Source: Microlunatus panaciterrae | GTDB lineage: Bacteria > Actinomycetota > Actinomycetes > Propionibacteriales > Propionibacteriaceae | DNA: 64,000 nt | Direction of reading: 5' to 3' | Assembly (NCBI RefSeq): GCF_016907535.1 | Contig: NZ_JAFBCF010000001.1 | Coordinates: 1,922,001 to 1,986,000, forward strand | Shown here: in pieces, positions 1 through 12,603 of the stretch | Layout: each line of letters opens with the position of its first letter | Position numbering within the stretch: the first letter of the stretch is position 1 | The notes under the pieces: model-generated | Told to the model about the DNA's origin: nothing | Database searches by the model: none | What the model saw: only the letters and a program-made list of their open reading frames with translations | Made by a program: the position numbers and the translations under genes

Positions 1-667
1 AGACGTACTCGGCCAGGTGCCGGACGGTGTCATGCGGCTCGGCCCGAAAGACCGGGCCGGTTTCGTACACCCGCTCGAAGACGCCGACCATCATCTGCTT
101 GTAGAACTGGGGGGACTGGGCCAGGTAGGCCGGTCGGCCGAAGTAGTCGACCTCGAACACGTTGGCGCCGGACTCGGTCGAGCCGGCCACCAGCTTCGGG
201 GTCTGGATCTCGGTGAAGTCCTGCGCCTCGAGGCTGAGCCGGAACCCGCGCAGCGAGGCCGCCGCGACCTGCCAACACGCCCGCTGGCGCGGGTGCCGCC
301 AGGCGACGGCGCCCTGGTCGAGCTGGATCGGCAGCGACGCCTCCAGGGCCGGCCGCCACAGCTCGAGCACCGTCGGCTCCGCCGGGGACGACAGCGGGGT
401 GATCATCGGTTCGGTCAGTTCGACGCCGAGCGGCGCTCGCAGGTTGGCTGTCACCCGGCCCTCGACCCGTACCACCGTCTCCTCCCCGAGCCGGTCCAGC
501 TGCTCGCGGGTCGCCGGGTCGGTGACGACCACCTGGGCCAGGCCGGAGCGGTCACGGACGATGAGGAACGTGACGCCGGCCAGTCGGCGGCGACGGTGGA
601 TCCATCCTTCGATGACGGTGCGCTGGCTCTCCTGTCCGGCCAGCGCCGCACTGAGCGTGCGTTGCAT
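1..667 (-). CDS. aspS: Aspartate--tRNA ligase, archaeal type (5' part; runs off the window)
   Basis: Charges tRNA with aspartate in the cytoplasm. The visible 222 residues hold the N-terminal OB-fold anticodon-binding domain (about residues 15-105) and the start of the class II catalytic domain, with the motif-2 region reading FRAEPHDTVRH and the nearby AQSPQFYKQMM. This combination and the short linker match archaeal/eukaryal-type AspRS rather than the long bacterial type. Such enzymes may be non-discriminating and also charge tRNA-Asn; that cannot be settled here because the C-terminal third lies outside the window. ATG is chosen because a strong GGAGGTG Shine-Dalgarno lies 6 bases before it. 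Expression is probably controlled by the T-box leader just upstream. Confidence 0.92.
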   Translation of the reverse strand, partial: MQRTLSAALAGQESQRTVIEGWIHRRRRLAGVTFLIVRDRSGLAQVVVTDPATREQLDRLGEETVVRVEGRVTANLRAPLGVELTEPMITPLSSPAEPTVLELWRPALEASLPIQLDQGAVAWRHPRQRACWQVAAASLRGFRLSLEAQDFTEIQTPKLVAGSTESGANVFEVDYFGRPAYLAQSPQFYKQMMVGVFERVYETGPVFRAEPHDTVRHLAEYV

Positions 668-829
668 AGGGTTCACCTCCTGGGTCTTCTCTTCCCGGGA
701 GGTGTGGGCGATCGGGGGCTCGCGGTGCCACCACACCTTCGCCGACCTGATCGGTCGGCCTCGCTGCAGTCCGTCGCCGTGGACCAGGCGGGCGGCTCGG
801 GGATCGTCACTCCCGTCGGCACCGCTCCG
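668..829 (-). promoter_or_regulatory. Translational T-box riboswitch (ultrashort Stem I, Asp specifier) of aspS
   Basis: Read on the minus strand, the leader has a small Stem I hairpin at 814-800 (GGGA, 7-nt loop GTGACGA, TCCC) inside a GCGG/CCGC helix. A 7-bp hairpin (GCCGACC/GGTCGGC, 759-741) sits where Stem III is expected. The T-box core GGTGGCACCGCG follows around 732-721. GGTGTGG (737-731) pairs with CCACACC (707-701) to form the antisequestrator. The alternative hairpin pairs CACCTCC (704-698) with the Shine-Dalgarno GGAGGTG (680-674), extended by GGG/CCC, so the two folds exclude each other. There is no poly-U tract, so control should be at translation. GAC in the Stem I loop (808-806) would be the aspartate specifier. 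The elements are seen; tRNA binding is inferred. Confidence 0.85.
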
Positions 830-833
830 CGCC

Positions 834-839
834 AGCATA
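834..839 (-). promoter_or_regulatory. Probable -10 box for the aspS leader
   Basis: TATGCT on the minus strand, about 170 bases before the aspS start. It would start transcription a few bases before the first T-box helix. No good -35 box is visible, so the assignment rests on position. Confidence 0.4.
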
Positions 840-920
840 GGCGCCCACCAGCCGCCGCCGCACCGGATTTTCCGACGTTTCTTCGGCGCCCGGTAGGGTG
901 CGCCTCAGGAGGAGATGACA

Positions 921-1688
921 GTGATCGAACTACGCACGCCGGCCGAGATCGACCAGATGCGGCCGGCCGGCCGGTTCGTGGCCGAGGTGTTGACGCGGTT
1001 GGTGGCTGAGGTCAGGCCGGGCGTCAACCTGCTCGACCTGGATGCGCTGGCCCACCGGATGATCCGCGACCGGGGCGCTGAGTCGTGTTACATCGACTAT
1101 CACCCGTCGTTCGGCGCCAGCCCGTTCGGCAAGGTGCTGTGCGCCTCCGTCAACGATGCGGTGCTGCACGGGCTCCCGCGTGACTACACCGTGCAGGACG
1201 GCGACCTGGTCAGTCTCGACTTCGCTGCCGCCGTGGACGGCTGGGTCTGCGACTCGGCCGTCTCCGTCGTCGCCGGCACGCCCCGCGCGGAGGACCAGCG
1301 GTTGATCGATCTGGCCTCGCAGGCCCTCCGGGCCGCGATCGACGTGGCCCGGCCGGGCAACCGGATCGGCGACATCTCCGCCGCCATCGGTGCGGTGGCG
1401 ACCGGGGCGGGGCTCAAGGTCAACACCGACTTCGGCGGCCATGGGGTGGGCCGGACCATGCACGGCGACCCGCACGTGCCCAACAATGGCCGGCCGGGTC
1501 GTGGACTGCCGCTCAAGCCCGGGCTGGTGATCGCCATCGAGCCCTGGTTCTGTGCGGGCACGGACAAGATCTTCACCGACCCGGACGGCTGGACGCTGCG
1601 CAGCCTGGACGGCAGCCGGGGTGCCCACATGGAACACACCATCGCCATCACCGACGGTGACCCGATCGTGCTGACCGCCCGCGGCTAG
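921..1688 (+). CDS. map: Type I methionine aminopeptidase
   Basis: Removes the initiator methionine from nascent proteins in the cytoplasm. The M24 pita-bread fold is complete at 255 residues. The five metal ligands are visible in order: Asp in SLDFAAAVDG, Asp in VCDSAV, His in GGHGVGRTMH, Glu in AIEPWF and Glu in HMEHT. The substrate histidine lies in the HGLP motif. GTG at 921 is preferred over ATG at 915, because the AGGAGG at 907-912 is 8 bases from the GTG and only 2 from the ATG. Its TAG stop overlaps the stop of the convergent dinB2-like gene in one CTAG. It starts about 80 bases beyond the promoter of the divergent aspS leader. Actinobacteria often have two map genes; which one this is cannot be told. 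Confidence 0.95.
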   Translation: MIELRTPAEIDQMRPAGRFVAEVLTRLVAEVRPGVNLLDLDALAHRMIRDRGAESCYIDYHPSFGASPFGKVLCASVNDAVLHGLPRDYTVQDGDLVSLDFAAAVDGWVCDSAVSVVAGTPRAEDQRLIDLASQALRAAIDVARPGNRIGDISAAIGAVATGAGLKVNTDFGGHGVGRTMHGDPHVPNNGRPGRGLPLKPGLVIAIEPWFCAGTDKIFTDPDGWTLRSLDGSRGAHMEHTIAITDGDPIVLTARG

Positions 1689-9103: not shown

Positions 9104-10897
9104 GTGAGCCCTCTCCGCGGTTGCGGGTCTCTGCTCGATCTCCGTGTTGACCTGTTCGCGGGCCGCTCGGTAGAAGTCGGGATCCAGCGGGAAGTGCGAA
9201 TAGCTGAGGGTGCCGTCCGGATCGATGATCTCCAGCGCGCGCTCCCGACCGGCCCGCTCACGCAGCAGCTGGAGGGCGCGGTGGTCCGCCATCGCCTGGG
9301 CTGCCACCCGGTGCCGGATCGACTCCCAGGGTGTCCGGTCAGGTCCCGGGTAGACGATGAAGGCGTCGCCGGCTGGGAAGGCGCCACCGGCGCAGGTGTC
9401 GACGAACGGGTCGATCCGACGGGTCGAGCGAGCTGAGTTGTAGAAGTTGAAACCCCAGTGCAGGAAACCGCCGGCCTCATGCGCGAACAGCTGATGTCCC
9501 AGCACCCGAAGCCGGGCGGACGGCAACCCGATGAAGCGGTTGGCGACGTCGCGGTCCTGGCCTACGCAGAAGTACACCCACAGGTTGGGCACCCCGGCGT
9601 CCAGGAAGGGCTGGACCGCGTCGGTGGCAACGACCGGGTTGCTGACCAGGCCCGAGCGGTAGAACTCGAAGTCGCTGAGGGCGTCGATCACCGTGCAGTC
9701 GACCAGCAGGTCGGCGACCACGGTCCGGGCGGCACGGTAGGAATCGGCATGCTCGGCACCGTGCGGCTCGTCCGAGAGATGGAAGAGCACCCGGTCGAGG
9801 CCCCAGCGCTCGGCCAGGAACGCCTTCAGCCGGGGAAGCAGCTGGACCAGGAACTCGCGGTAGCGCGGGTCGGTGGCCGGCACCTCCCAACCGAACAGCT
9901 GCGTGAGCTTCCCGTCCTGGACGCCGTCGATGGCCGGGGTGGCCCGGGCGCCCCACTGGGTGAACAGGTGCGGCATCTCCAGGTAGCTGATGCCGTGCCG
10001 GCGGCAGACCTCCAGCCACCGGTCCAGCTTCTTGAAGTCGAAGTCGTAGTCACCGCCGTCGACGGTGATGTCGACCAGCTGCACCGGTGTACGGCGGGCG
10101 CCGACGGCGGTGTCGACCGGCGGGGTCCAGACCGGCGTCAGCAGTGAGTTGATGTCCATCCGGGCGGCGCTGCCGACGAAGGCGTCGATGGTGGACCAGT
10201 GCCGTTCACTGAAGACCTCGTCACCGTAGTGATCGGCCAGCCCGTCGGCATGGAACCAGTGGGTGTTGACGAGGTCCAGCTCCGGCAGTGTCTCGCCGAT
10301 GACCCGCAGCCGCACGACGTCCTCGTACAGCGTCTCGCCGGTGCCGGGCACGCTGGCCCGGACCCGCAGCTCGAGGTCGCCGGCGTCCTCGGCACTCGGA
10401 ACGCAGACATCGAACCAGGCGCTGCGCCAGTGTCCGACGATCGGTTCCACCCGTCCGTCCGGCGCCGGCCGCAGCAGGTCCGGATAGAGCCCCGGCGCGT
10501 CCCTCAGGTAGCCGTCGTCATGGCCGGGGAAGGCCACCAGGGTGCAGGGCACCAGGTCGACGCTGGAGATGCTGACGAACCTGGCGGCCGGTCCGTCGAT
10601 GCTCAGCTGCACCGCGTCAGCCGGCACCCGGGCCGAGTCCGGCGGCCGGAAGGCGACCTGGAAGGAGAACACCTCGCCAAGGAACACCGAGGCAGCGATC
10701 CTGGCGTTCAGCGGGCGAGGGGTGGAGTCGGCAAAGACCTTCTCCAGCGAGTCGACTGTGACGAACTGCCATCCGTTGGTGATGATGTGCTCCAGAGCGT
10801 AGTGACCGGGTCCTGGGCAGAACCCTAGTGGCCCTCCGGAGCGCCGGACGGCCGGGACGGCAGGTGAGGGCCCACCCCGGTTAGAGAAAACGGCCAT
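9083..10897 (-). CDS. DUF4091 (GH123-like) protein
   Basis: 604 residues. Matches the DUF4091 family, whose catalytic domain resembles GH123 N-acetylgalactosaminidases. An N-terminal beta domain (about residues 45-200, from FVTVDSLEKVF) precedes a TIM-barrel-like region containing MDINSLLTPVWTPP, GISYLEMPHLFTQWG and HLSDEPHG, the last a likely acidic active-site motif. The GGFLHWGFNFYNS segment is also typical. No signal peptide is visible, so it probably acts on imported sugars. ATG at 10897 is the only start in the open N-terminal stretch, but GGAGGA touches it directly, so the first 40 residues are uncertain. Its start lies 20 bases from the divergent RNase J start. Confidence 0.75.
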   Translation of the reverse strand: MAVFSNRGGPSPAVPAVRRSGGPLGFCPGPGHYALEHIITNGWQFVTVDSLEKVFADSTPRPLNARIAASVFLGEVFSFQVAFRPPDSARVPADAVQLSIDGPAARFVSISSVDLVPCTLVAFPGHDDGYLRDAPGLYPDLLRPAPDGRVEPIVGHWRSAWFDVCVPSAEDAGDLELRVRASVPGTGETLYEDVVRLRVIGETLPELDLVNTHWFHADGLADHYGDEVFSERHWSTIDAFVGSAARMDINSLLTPVWTPPVDTAVGARRTPVQLVDITVDGGDYDFDFKKLDRWLEVCRRHGISYLEMPHLFTQWGARATPAIDGVQDGKLTQLFGWEVPATDPRYREFLVQLLPRLKAFLAERWGLDRVLFHLSDEPHGAEHADSYRAARTVVADLLVDCTVIDALSDFEFYRSGLVSNPVVATDAVQPFLDAGVPNLWVYFCVGQDRDVANRFIGLPSARLRVLGHQLFAHEAGGFLHWGFNFYNSARSTRRIDPFVDTCAGGAFPAGDAFIVYPGPDRTPWESIRHRVAAQAMADHRALQLLRERAGRERALEIIDPDGTLSYSHFPLDPDFYRAAREQVNTEIEQRPATAERAHSAGQQR

Positions 10898-10917: not shown

Positions 10918-12603
10918 ATGAGCCATCCTCATCCCGACCTCGGCGCCCCTCCCAAGCTGGACCGCAAAGCTCTGCGGATCACCCCGCTCGGCGGGCTGGG
11001 TGAGATCGGCCGCAACATGACCGTCTTCGAGCACCGGAACAAGCTGCTGATCGTCGACTGCGGCGTGCTCTTCCCGGAGGAGCACCAGCCCGGCGTGGAC
11101 GTGATCCTGCCTGACTTCAGCTCGATCCACGACCGGTTGGCCGACGTCGAGGCGATCGTCCTGACGCACGGTCACGAGGACCACATCGGCGGGGTGCCCT
11201 ACCTGCTCAAGGAACGCCCGGACATCCCGCTGATCGGGTCCAGGCTGACGCTCGCCTTCGTGGAGGCCAAGCTCAAGGAGCATCGGATCAAGCCGAAGAC
11301 GATCGAGGTGGCCGAGGGTCACCGGCGTTCCCTCGGTCCGTTCGACTGCGAGTTCGTTGCGGTCAACCACTCCATCCCCGACAGCCTCGCCGTCGCCATC
11401 CGGACGTCGGCCGGACTGGTGTTGCACACCGGCGACTTCAAGATGGACCAGTTCCCGCTGGACGGCCGGATCACCGACCTCCGCGCCTTCGCCCGGCTGG
11501 GAGAGGAGGGCGTGGACCTGTTCCTCACCGACTCCACCAATGCCGAGGTGCCGGGCTTCACCACCTCCGAGAGCGAGCTGTCACCGGCCATCGAGGCCGT
11601 CTTCCGCACCGCCCCCCGGCGGGTGATCGTGTCCAGCTTCGCCAGCCACGTACACCGCATCCAGCAGGTGCTGGACGCCGCCCACACCCACGGCCGCAAG
11701 GTCGCGTTCGTGGGCCGGTCGATGGTGCGCAATATGGGTATCGCGCGCGATCTCGGCTACCTGAAGATCCCCAAGGGCCTGGTCGTCGACCTCAAGGTGC
11801 TGGAGAAGCTCCCCGACGAGAAGGTGACGCTGATCTGCACCGGTTCGCAGGGTGAGCCGATGGCGGCGCTGTCGCGGATGGCGAACCGGGACCACATGAT
11901 CCGGATCGGCGAGGGTGACACGGTGCTGCTGGCCAGCTCGTTGATCCCGGGCAATGAGAACGCCATCTACCGGGTGATCAACAGCCTGACCCGGTGGGGC
12001 GCGAACGTCGTGCACAAGGCCAACGCCAAGGTGCACGTCTCCGGTCACGCCAGCGCCGGCGAGCTGGTGTACTGCTACAACGTCGTCCGACCGCGAGGCG
12101 TGATGCCGGTTCACGGCGAATGGCGGCACCTCAAGGCGAACGGCGATCTCGCCGTCCGCACCGGCGTCGCACGTGACCGGGTGGTGATCGCCGACGATGG
12201 TGTGGTGGTCGACCTGGTGGACGGCCGCGCCTCCATCACCGGAAAGGTCCGGGCGGGCTACGTCTATGTGGACGGAATGACTGTCGGCGGTGCCACCGAC
12301 GCCTCCTTGAAGGACCGGCGGACGCTGGCCGAGGAAGGGGTCATCACGGTCGTCGCGATCGTGGACGCCGATACCGGCATGCTGGCCGAGGCGCCGGACT
12401 TCCTGGCCCGCGGCTTCGTGCACGATGACGACGCCTTCGACAGTGCGGCACCGCTGATCGAGAAGGCTCTGGCCAGGGCCGCCGAGGAGAGCATCGGGGA
12501 CGCCCAGCAGCTGGAGCGGTTGATCAGCCGCACGCTGAGCCAGTGGTTCTTCAAGAAGTACCGGCGTAACCCGATGATCATCCCGGTGGTAATCGACGCC
12601 TGA
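10918..12603 (+). CDS. rnj: Ribonuclease J
   Basis: Metallo-beta-lactamase/beta-CASP ribonuclease with 5'-3' exo- and endonuclease activity in RNA processing and decay. 561 residues, the normal length. Motif 2 is THGHEDHIGG (His84, His86, Asp88, His89), followed by the HTGDFKMD metal motif, beta-CASP motifs including FLTDSTNAEVPG and SSFASHVHRIQQ, the RNA-binding GSQGEPMAAL, and the C-terminal HVSGHASAGEL and PVHGEWRHL segments. The last 100 residues form the usual C-terminal domain. The gene is not next to dapA as it often is in actinobacteria. There is no Shine-Dalgarno, and a TAGTTT box 6 bases upstream suggests a leaderless transcript. Confidence 0.96.
   Translation: MSHPHPDLGAPPKLDRKALRITPLGGLGEIGRNMTVFEHRNKLLIVDCGVLFPEEHQPGVDVILPDFSSIHDRLADVEAIVLTHGHEDHIGGVPYLLKERPDIPLIGSRLTLAFVEAKLKEHRIKPKTIEVAEGHRRSLGPFDCEFVAVNHSIPDSLAVAIRTSAGLVLHTGDFKMDQFPLDGRITDLRAFARLGEEGVDLFLTDSTNAEVPGFTTSESELSPAIEAVFRTAPRRVIVSSFASHVHRIQQVLDAAHTHGRKVAFVGRSMVRNMGIARDLGYLKIPKGLVVDLKVLEKLPDEKVTLICTGSQGEPMAALSRMANRDHMIRIGEGDTVLLASSLIPGNENAIYRVINSLTRWGANVVHKANAKVHVSGHASAGELVYCYNVVRPRGVMPVHGEWRHLKANGDLAVRTGVARDRVVIADDGVVVDLVDGRASITGKVRAGYVYVDGMTVGGATDASLKDRRTLAEEGVITVVAIVDADTGMLAEAPDFLARGFVHDDDAFDSAAPLIEKALARAAEESIGDAQQLERLISRTLSQWFFKKYRRNPMIIPVVIDA

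Follow-up and report, generated by a model that had tools for sequence, protein, structure and literature searches.

A second aspartyl-tRNA synthetase and its leader

The window, a stretch of 64,000 nucleotides from Microlunatus panaciterrae, opens with the gene for a second aspartyl-tRNA synthetase (AspRS), preceded by a leader that an earlier note, made from the sequence letters, had read as a translational T-box with an ultrashort Stem I. The locus raises a question in three parts: whether this leader belongs to the T-box family, which tRNA it could read, and how so short a Stem I could hold that tRNA.

The gene, aspS2, lies on the minus strand at 1..667 and runs out of the window; in the genome it encodes 428 amino acids. 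The assignment to the archaeal type, made in the same note, agrees with the domain searches. The protein scores 515.9 bits against NF003483 (aspartate--tRNA(Asn) ligase; cut-off 353), and Pfam models find an OB fold and a class II core and no GAD domain, the lack of which is given as a criterion for archaeal-type AspRS in a section of PMC4206432. Against TIGR00458 the score is 336.7, under the cut-off of 368.4, and the best solved relative is 1n9w, the AspRS2 of Thermus thermophilus. The genome also has a full bacterial AspRS elsewhere, together with GatB. The divergent neighbour at 915-1688, plus strand, encodes a peptidase M24, presumably methionine aminopeptidase-like.

At E 1e-90, aspS2 is present in at least 79 of the 293 genomes of the order sample, in one of the 57 of the family sample, and in at least two of the 396 of the phylum sample; the lower bounds reflect scoring of the best six candidates per genome in the order sample and the best four in the phylum sample. 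Three of the 79 order-sample matches (G585, G507, and G556) are partial, and their leaders are not included in what follows. As relatives of the gene, the best 80 of 563 loci were kept. A bacterial AspRS was found in all 147 genomes of an order sample, and for the 58 aspS2 holders checked among them the gene therefore supplies an additional synthetase.

Layout of the leader

Because the gene is encoded on the minus strand, coordinates in the leader descend, from 829 to 668. The elements of the leader are as follows.

834..839 (read 839-834), minus strand: candidate -10 element TATGCT, placed by the TANNNT spacing in relatives
792..825, minus strand: ultrashort Stem I, base helix GCGGU (825-821) with GCCGC (796-792)
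814-811 with 803-800, minus strand: upper part of Stem I, K-turn-like GCC-GA / GA, then GGGA (814-811) with UCCC (803-800)
804..810, minus strand: apical specifier loop GUGACGA, 7 nt, putative specifier codon GAC (Asp) at 808-806
769..790, minus strand: candidate small pseudoknot in the Stem IIA/B position, CGCC (790-787) with GGCG (778-775) and GUCC (784-781) with GGAC (772-769)
741..759, minus strand: Stem III hairpin GCCGACC / GGUCGGC, 7 bp, from folding and from covariation in relatives
701..737, minus strand: antisequestrator, helix A1 GGUGUGG (737-731) with CCACACC (707-701), helix A2 GCGA (723-720) with UCGC (711-708)
724..730, minus strand: T-box bulge UGGCACC, 7 nt, with UGGC at 730-727
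732-721, minus strand: T-box core GGTGGCACCGCG
674..704, minus strand: sequestrator, anti-SD CACCUCC (704-698) with SD GGAGGUG (680-674)
667-665, minus strand: aspS2 start codon ATG, six bases after GGAGGUG

Written out on the minus strand, Stem I (825-792) is GCGGU-GCC-GA-C-GGGA-GUGACGA-UCCC-C-GA-GCCGC and the candidate pseudoknot (790-769) is CGCC-UG-GUCC-AC-GGCG-AC-GGAC, and GAA separates the Stem III hairpin from the antisequestrator. All motifs named in the earlier note, that is the T-box core, GGTGTGG/CCACACC, and CACCTCC/GGAGGTG, are present on this strand; the 7-nt bulge UGGCACC and the GCGA/UCGC helix, which lie between the antisequestrator arms, had not been spelled out there.

The anti-SD CACCUCC and the 3' arm of A1 overlap by four bases, so antisequestrator and sequestrator cannot coexist. 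An anti-SD common to the antisequestrator and an SD sequestrator, with no terminator, is what marks a T-box as translational, and the window has this arrangement. Were the T-box transcriptional, the CACCUCC/GGAGGUG hairpin would be a terminator and not a mask over the ribosome site. Some Chloroflexota aspS2 leaders do look that way (L030 has a GC-rich stretch and four T after its T-box), but in the window a scan of 640-960 found no terminator-like site, and one hairpin arm is the ribosome-binding site itself, with the ATG close behind, which makes a transcriptional mode here very unlikely.

Folding of the single sequence gave a divided answer to the expectation of a two-state switch. In the ViennaRNA model, which excludes the pseudoknot and the tRNA, the free minimum-energy structure is the sequestrator state at -75.5 kcal/mol, as the switch would have it. 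Enforcing the antisequestrator gives -65.8 kcal/mol, and the Stem I base helix and upper stem then appear with GUGACGA unpaired; both also form when the Stem I part is folded alone. The z-scores, by contrast, are weak: -2.0 for the whole leader and +0.93, no better than shuffles, for the 60-nt Stem I part. For this reason we take single-sequence folding as weak evidence. A free search for H-type pseudoknots placed the window no higher than its shuffles, 55% of which reach eight pairs, and the pseudoknot in the window is a candidate proposed from its sequence.

Separately, the 5' strand of Stem I, GCGGUGCC (825-818), is fully complementary to GGCACCGC (729-722) of the T-box core on the minus strand, and this pairing is present in the minimum-energy structure of the 162-nt leader. 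By eye, no such complementarity was seen in a few relatives. The pairing may be an extra off state.

Homology to accepted T-box leaders

The earlier note had proposed a search with Rfam RF00230 and was ready to give up its reading if no T-box covariance model matched. On RF00230 the outcome went against it, the window leader being unmatched both at the gathering score and at E up to 10. The genome's only match to that model is an ileS-type leader at C1:1167930 (L001 1501-1687, minus strand; the gene was read as ileS from its first codons), and it too falls under the gathering score, with 42.6 bits against 93, from which we judge RF00230 a poor detector of leaders with a short Stem I. Given twelve aspS2 leader loci, the model matched eight, with E from 6.6e-16 to 0.054 and all under the gathering score; the four left unmatched are the ultrashort L003, L005, and L156, plus L028. 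Counting the window, none of the four ultrashort leaders submitted to RF00230 was detected.

A covariance model built from relatives, R1, gives the match that RF00230 does not. R1 was made from 15 Nocardioides-type aspS2 leaders, with the window left out, and finds the window leader with 51.2 bits and E 3.6e-9 in its own 4.07-Mb genome, where the next match has E 0.061 (150 of 7520 first-look candidates scored). Over 34 sources totalling 216 kb, the window leader has E 1.9e-10; these are 34 of about 165 sources, and four more were searched. Elsewhere in the window R1 gives weak matches at 12137-12252 (plus strand, E 0.003) and 9970-10144 (minus strand, E 0.05), which we take for chance in GC-rich sequence. 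R1 also matches leaders that RF00230 can detect (L093, L020, L088, L159, L017, and L031), and by this comparison the window leader is homologous to accepted members of the T-box family. The agreement between R1 and the window, judged by eye, lies mostly in Stem III and the antisequestrator; the model aligns the window's UGAC loop with those of relatives and puts the Stem I base helix out of register.

Applied to the 147 order genomes, R1 has a match at E <=1e-4 in 60, one each, and 58 of these 60 places sit just upstream of aspS2.

Core, antisequestrator and sequestrator across aspS2 leaders

The strict core TGGNACC[GA][CT]G occurs within 500 nt upstream of 104 of the 122 non-clostridial aspS2 genes fetched; searching the opposite strand gave 1 in 122, and mononucleotide shuffling gave 87 in 6100. 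The window leader is one of many aspS2 T-box leaders, not a lone case. Among the 18 leaders that have no strict core, seven have a variant core and eleven have none, and two of the eleven, L033 and L046, are on contigs that carry only part of the gene. Variant cores outside the strict pattern are TGGCACAGCG, in the four aspS2 leaders from the genus of the window, and TGGCACCGGG, in Nonomuraea. One aspS2 within the order, at L149, has no T-box core that could be recognised within 500 nt. The non-clostridial counts exclude 35 loci from clostridia (L048-L082), and the geometry and sequestrator counts also exclude L041; leader counts are partly dependent, some genomes being present twice, and identical rows were removed from the alignments and the tree.

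Full geometry, defined as A1 with at least five pairs, a 7-nt bulge, and an adjacent A2 with at least three pairs, was found in 103 of 103 strict-core leaders and in 191 of 7200 shuffles (of 36 distinct leaders); we used the joined geometry since the A1 pair count alone is too permissive against shuffles. In an alignment of the 36 distinct leaders, 94.4% of antisequestrator cells are paired, and six of the eleven pairs change on both sides, a number reached by 1 of 500 shuffles; the 22 cells changed on both sides are reached by none of 500. The number of pair types in these 36 leaders shows no excess, 483 of 500 shuffles reaching the observed value.

A sequestrator helix of at least seven pairs over GGAGG is present in 37 of 40 ultrashort-class leaders, 35 of 58 long-class leaders, and 1 of 5 others, counts made over GGAGG only and without a shuffle control. 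In 23 of the 103 leaders no helix of even five pairs lies over GGAGG, and some of the long leaders have a weaker SD sequestrator or none. Because one arm of the sequestrator is the ribosome-binding site, this helix can be judged by complementarity only. The expectation that relatives would keep both alternative helices by covariation is therefore borne out for the antisequestrator, while for the sequestrator it stops at complementarity.

Two forms of Stem I

Two kinds of Stem I precede aspS2. A long canonical Stem I, found in 65 of the leaders compared and carrying AGAGAG and GAAGAC, occurs in genus g266 (which we guess to be Kribbella-like), Actinoplanes, Nonomuraea, the four genomes from the genus of the window, and some Chloroflexota. 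The ultrashort form occurs in leaders of Nocardioides and g268, in Nakamurella aerolata, in L004, and in the window. As to the long form, L093 and the g266 leaders (L094-L130 and L134-L139, a few in these ranges being g268) combine a long Stem I bearing GAC with an SD sequestrator and with a short linker, free of Stem II, that joins Stem I to Stem III; in L093 three nucleotides of this linker stand for 40 model positions.

Alignment A3 comprises the 15 of the 28 ultrashort leaders that have a second hairpin and align cleanly; all are Nocardioides-type, eight from Nocardioides and seven from other genomes, and the window is not among them. From this alignment alone, RNAalifold recovers the base helix, the specifier hairpin with UGAC open, the second hairpin, Stem III, the antisequestrator, and the first of the two pseudoknot helices; of the 43 pairs it predicts, 12 have changes on both sides. 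For the named structure, 99.5% of cells pair in the 15 leaders and 11 of 38 pairs change on both sides, values that none of 500 shuffles reach; the number of pair types shows no excess, 59 of 500 shuffles reaching it. In the first pseudoknot helix one pair is C-G in 10 and U-A in 5 of the 15 leaders, and in Stem III one of six pairs is changed on both sides, over nine cells. The antisequestrator and the second pseudoknot helix are invariant in A3 and so uninformative there. Covariation supports Stem I, one pseudoknot helix, and Stem III in these relatives, and the antisequestrator over the wider set. With R1 and the RF00230-matching relatives, these comparisons uphold the earlier reading of a translational T-box with an ultrashort Stem I.

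In A3 leaders (L005, L122, L151, L156, and others) the specifier hairpin and a second hairpin of variable length stand on one base helix, making a three-way junction; to our knowledge no other T-box has a Stem I of this shape. Columns 10 and 66 of A3, in the Stem I base helix, hold an A-C mismatch in nine of the 15 leaders, A-U in three, G-C in two, and a gap in one. The window and six relatives are without the second hairpin, as judged by length, and the apical loop has 7 nt in the window fold and 9 nt in the A3 group.

Covariation also bears on whether the stretch instead encodes an N-terminal extension of AspRS, its motifs coincidental. In the window the frame is indeed open for 57 codons upstream of the ATG. 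Against this, an in-frame stop occurs between a point 60 nt upstream of the core and the gene in 12 of 32 leaders (window included), the base pairs covary, and both relatives and solved structures match from near residue 1 of the ATG form. We reject the coding explanation, to which we would give next to no credence.

In the window 47 nt separate UGAC from the GAGG at the start of Stem III, and across the window, L004, L089, L090, L117, L152, and L153 this spacing is 46-49 nt (L003 is longer, with 72). Since the remainder of Stem I (its 3' half) and the small pseudoknot have to fit into these 46-49 nt, there is no room for a Stem II hairpin. On the other side, 16 of the 28 ultrashort leaders have a TANNNT 26-31 nt upstream of UGAC, as against 4.8% of shuffles; a consensus scan of 640-960 found no sigma-70 site. 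The candidate -10 element TATGCT would put the transcript start at the base of Stem I, near 826-828, and since the TANNNT boxes place transcript starts there, a hidden distal arm further upstream is unlikely. Leaders of the window type thus seem to be without both the elbow-binding tip and the Stem II S-turn.

A tree of 83 of the 111 distinct AspRS2 proteins (seven loci and 32 clostridial ones were left out) places the window protein as sister to that of Nakamurella aerolata (97/94), the two weakly joined to the Nocardioides clade (89/64), and groups the four AspRS2 proteins from the genus of the window with Nonomuraea (100/93), apart from the window protein. From this placement, the window aspS2 was probably acquired by transfer together with its leader. 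The tree and the loop AGUGACGC also hint that Catellatospora may represent a second, independent truncation.

A transferred gene might carry along a T-box that has decayed and no longer functions. The position of the window gene outside the clade of four same-genus genes would suit such decay, as would a truncated Stem I with a weakly supported base helix. Yet the window retains its core, bulge, helices, and sequestrator intact, and the truncation is common to the Nocardioides-type clade, where it is kept with covariation; we consider decay highly improbable.

Specifier and tRNA match

The genome's tRNA-Asp has anticodon GUC and G73, with CCA not encoded, and the bulge UGGC is complementary to GCCA, G73 followed by CCA. 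Of 111 non-clostridial leaders whose core is strict or variant, 107 have C directly after UGG and 4 have U. By comparison, the ileS-type leader of the same genome carries UGGU, as would fit tRNA-Ile, which has A73.

GAC occupies the codon position of the loop in 28 ultrashort leaders and in 65 long ones, counts that are partly circular because both classes are recognised by motifs containing GAC; likewise UGAC is found in 28 of 28 ultrashort leaders, which were located by UGAC. In the window, the choice of specifier loop rests on the fold and on homology. One leader, L042 from a Sulfobacillus MAG, seems, as judged by eye, to have GAU in place of GAC upstream of the core.

The base before the codon differs between the two classes. 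It is U in 28 of 28 ultrashort leaders (partly by the choice of UGAC) versus A in 65 of 65 long leaders; in ultrashort leaders the two bases before UGAC vary, and a purine follows the codon in all 28. The anticodon loop of the genome's tRNA-Asp is CUGUCAC, and in the window six contiguous pairs are possible between GUGACG and U33 to C38, one of them G-U. The U before GAC could pair with A37 and the purine after GAC with U33. Such a longer helix between apical loop and anticodon loop might be what holds the tRNA in place of the elbow-binding tip and the Stem II S-turn, which would make these leaders a fifth T-box plan; we put this forward tentatively, as a possibility that we doubt somewhat more than we believe.

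The leader before a bacterial AspRS

The two R1-matched genomes without an aspS2 match, G005 and G029, belong to one genus of the window's family. In these, the R1 match lies 110 and 35 bases, respectively, before the match of a single bacterial AspRS.

L169 3073-3212 and L170 7183-7360: ultrashort leaders before the single bacterial-type AspRS in these two genomes of the window's family

The leader loops in G005 and G029 also read GUGACG, and in both, the GGAGG able to pair with the anti-SD is not next to the ATG. Because the leader also stands before a bacterial AspRS in these two genomes, it follows the amino acid and not the gene family, and this link of one leader to two AspRS types is free of the circularity that attends the GAC counts. 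One leader before two such unlike AspRS types suggests that these switches are exchangeable between genes.

Aspartate and asparagine had both been entertained in the earlier note; the codon GAC fits tRNA-Asp and leaves asparagine without a matching codon. There are grounds for considering a T-box that reads tRNA-Asn, or tRNA-Asp and tRNA-Asn together, and feeds the tRNA-dependent asparagine pathway: NF003483 is an aspartate--tRNA(Asn) ligase family, AspRS2 enzymes also charge tRNA-Asn, GatB is encoded in the genome, and tRNA-Asn also has G73, so that UGGC would not tell it from tRNA-Asp. A precedent is Clostridium acetobutylicum, in which Saad et al. reportedly found T-box control of tRNA-dependent amidation. 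The apical loop, however, has GAC and no AAC, and GUGAC is retained where the leader precedes a bacterial AspRS. We therefore regard a reading of tRNA-Asn as very improbable.

Proposed switch

We conclude with considerable confidence, the regulation being inferred from sequence comparison, that the leader is a translational T-box that reads tRNA-Asp and controls the second, archaeal-type AspRS. While tRNA-Asp is charged or absent, the anti-SD CACCUCC would pair with the ribosome-binding site and translation would be low. When uncharged tRNA-Asp accumulates, its anticodon GUC would bind the specifier GAC in the apical loop of the ultrashort Stem I, and its free end GCCA would pair with UGGC of the T-box bulge. 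The GGUGUGG/CCACACC antisequestrator would then be held by the tRNA, the anti-SD withdrawn, and the ribosome-binding site freed. Binding of the tRNA, sensing of its charging, and the effect on translation are all predicted steps.

As for purpose, our guess is that AspRS2 is switched on when the housekeeping AspRS fails, is inhibited, or cannot keep tRNA-Asp charged. Second synthetases kept against natural inhibitors are reviewed in PMC9437257, a passage of which names SerRS, IleRS, and TrpRS.

Comparison with known T-box systems

A search of openly licensed PubMed Central papers found no report of leaders of this kind; TBDB may list some. The T-box classes described in a section of PMC10482949 are four, with the distal double T-loop of Stem I, the S-turn of Stem II, or both reinforcing the binding. 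According to the same section, class III (short) T-boxes require Stem II, and class II, which lacks Stem II, is glycine-specific. As predicted here, the plan of the window leader does not fit any of the four classes as that section sets them out.

Like the class III ileS T-box of Nocardia farcinica, as treated in parts of PMC10482949 and PMC7583486, the window leader is actinobacterial and translational with an SD sequestrator, and has a short Stem I without an elbow-binding tip and an apical specifier loop. Unlike it, the window leader would read tRNA-Asp, sits before an AspRS, and leaves no room for Stem II; its loop, moreover, has 7 nt (9 nt in A3) where those parts give 5-6 nt for class III. 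The short Stem I, apical loop, and missing tip of class III are thus found in the window leader, and the 5-6-nt loop and the Stem II S-turn are not. The likeness to ileS leaders drawn in the earlier note accordingly holds for the short Stem I and the translational mode and fails for the overall plan, with its 47 nt from UGAC to Stem III; the ileS-type leader of the window genome differs too, its Stem I and Stem III lying far apart.

Class II, represented by Bacillus subtilis glyQS in a section of PMC10482949, resembles the window leader in passing from Stem I to Stem III with no Stem II hairpin. By that account, however, class II glyQS has a long Stem I with an elbow-binding tip, is glycine-specific, and is generally transcriptional. 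The long aspS2 leaders of g266 are laid out much like class II, but with GAC and an SD sequestrator.

In Clostridium acetobutylicum, a T-box controls one of three AspRS genes, a redundant aspS, according to a passage of PMC2494555; the window has likewise a probable T-box before a second AspRS, but the clostridial host is a Firmicute. The enzyme itself resembles the Thermus thermophilus AspRS2 (1n9w), an archaeal-type, non-discriminating second AspRS.

A conserved tRNA-Asp group with a short Stem I and without Stem II would break both class rules as given in parts of PMC10482949 and PMC7583486, and raises the question of what a minimal tRNA-sensing mRNA is. Before a single gene family, the aspS2 leaders range naturally from a long to an ultrashort Stem I, a gradation along which loss of the distal arm is traceable step by step.
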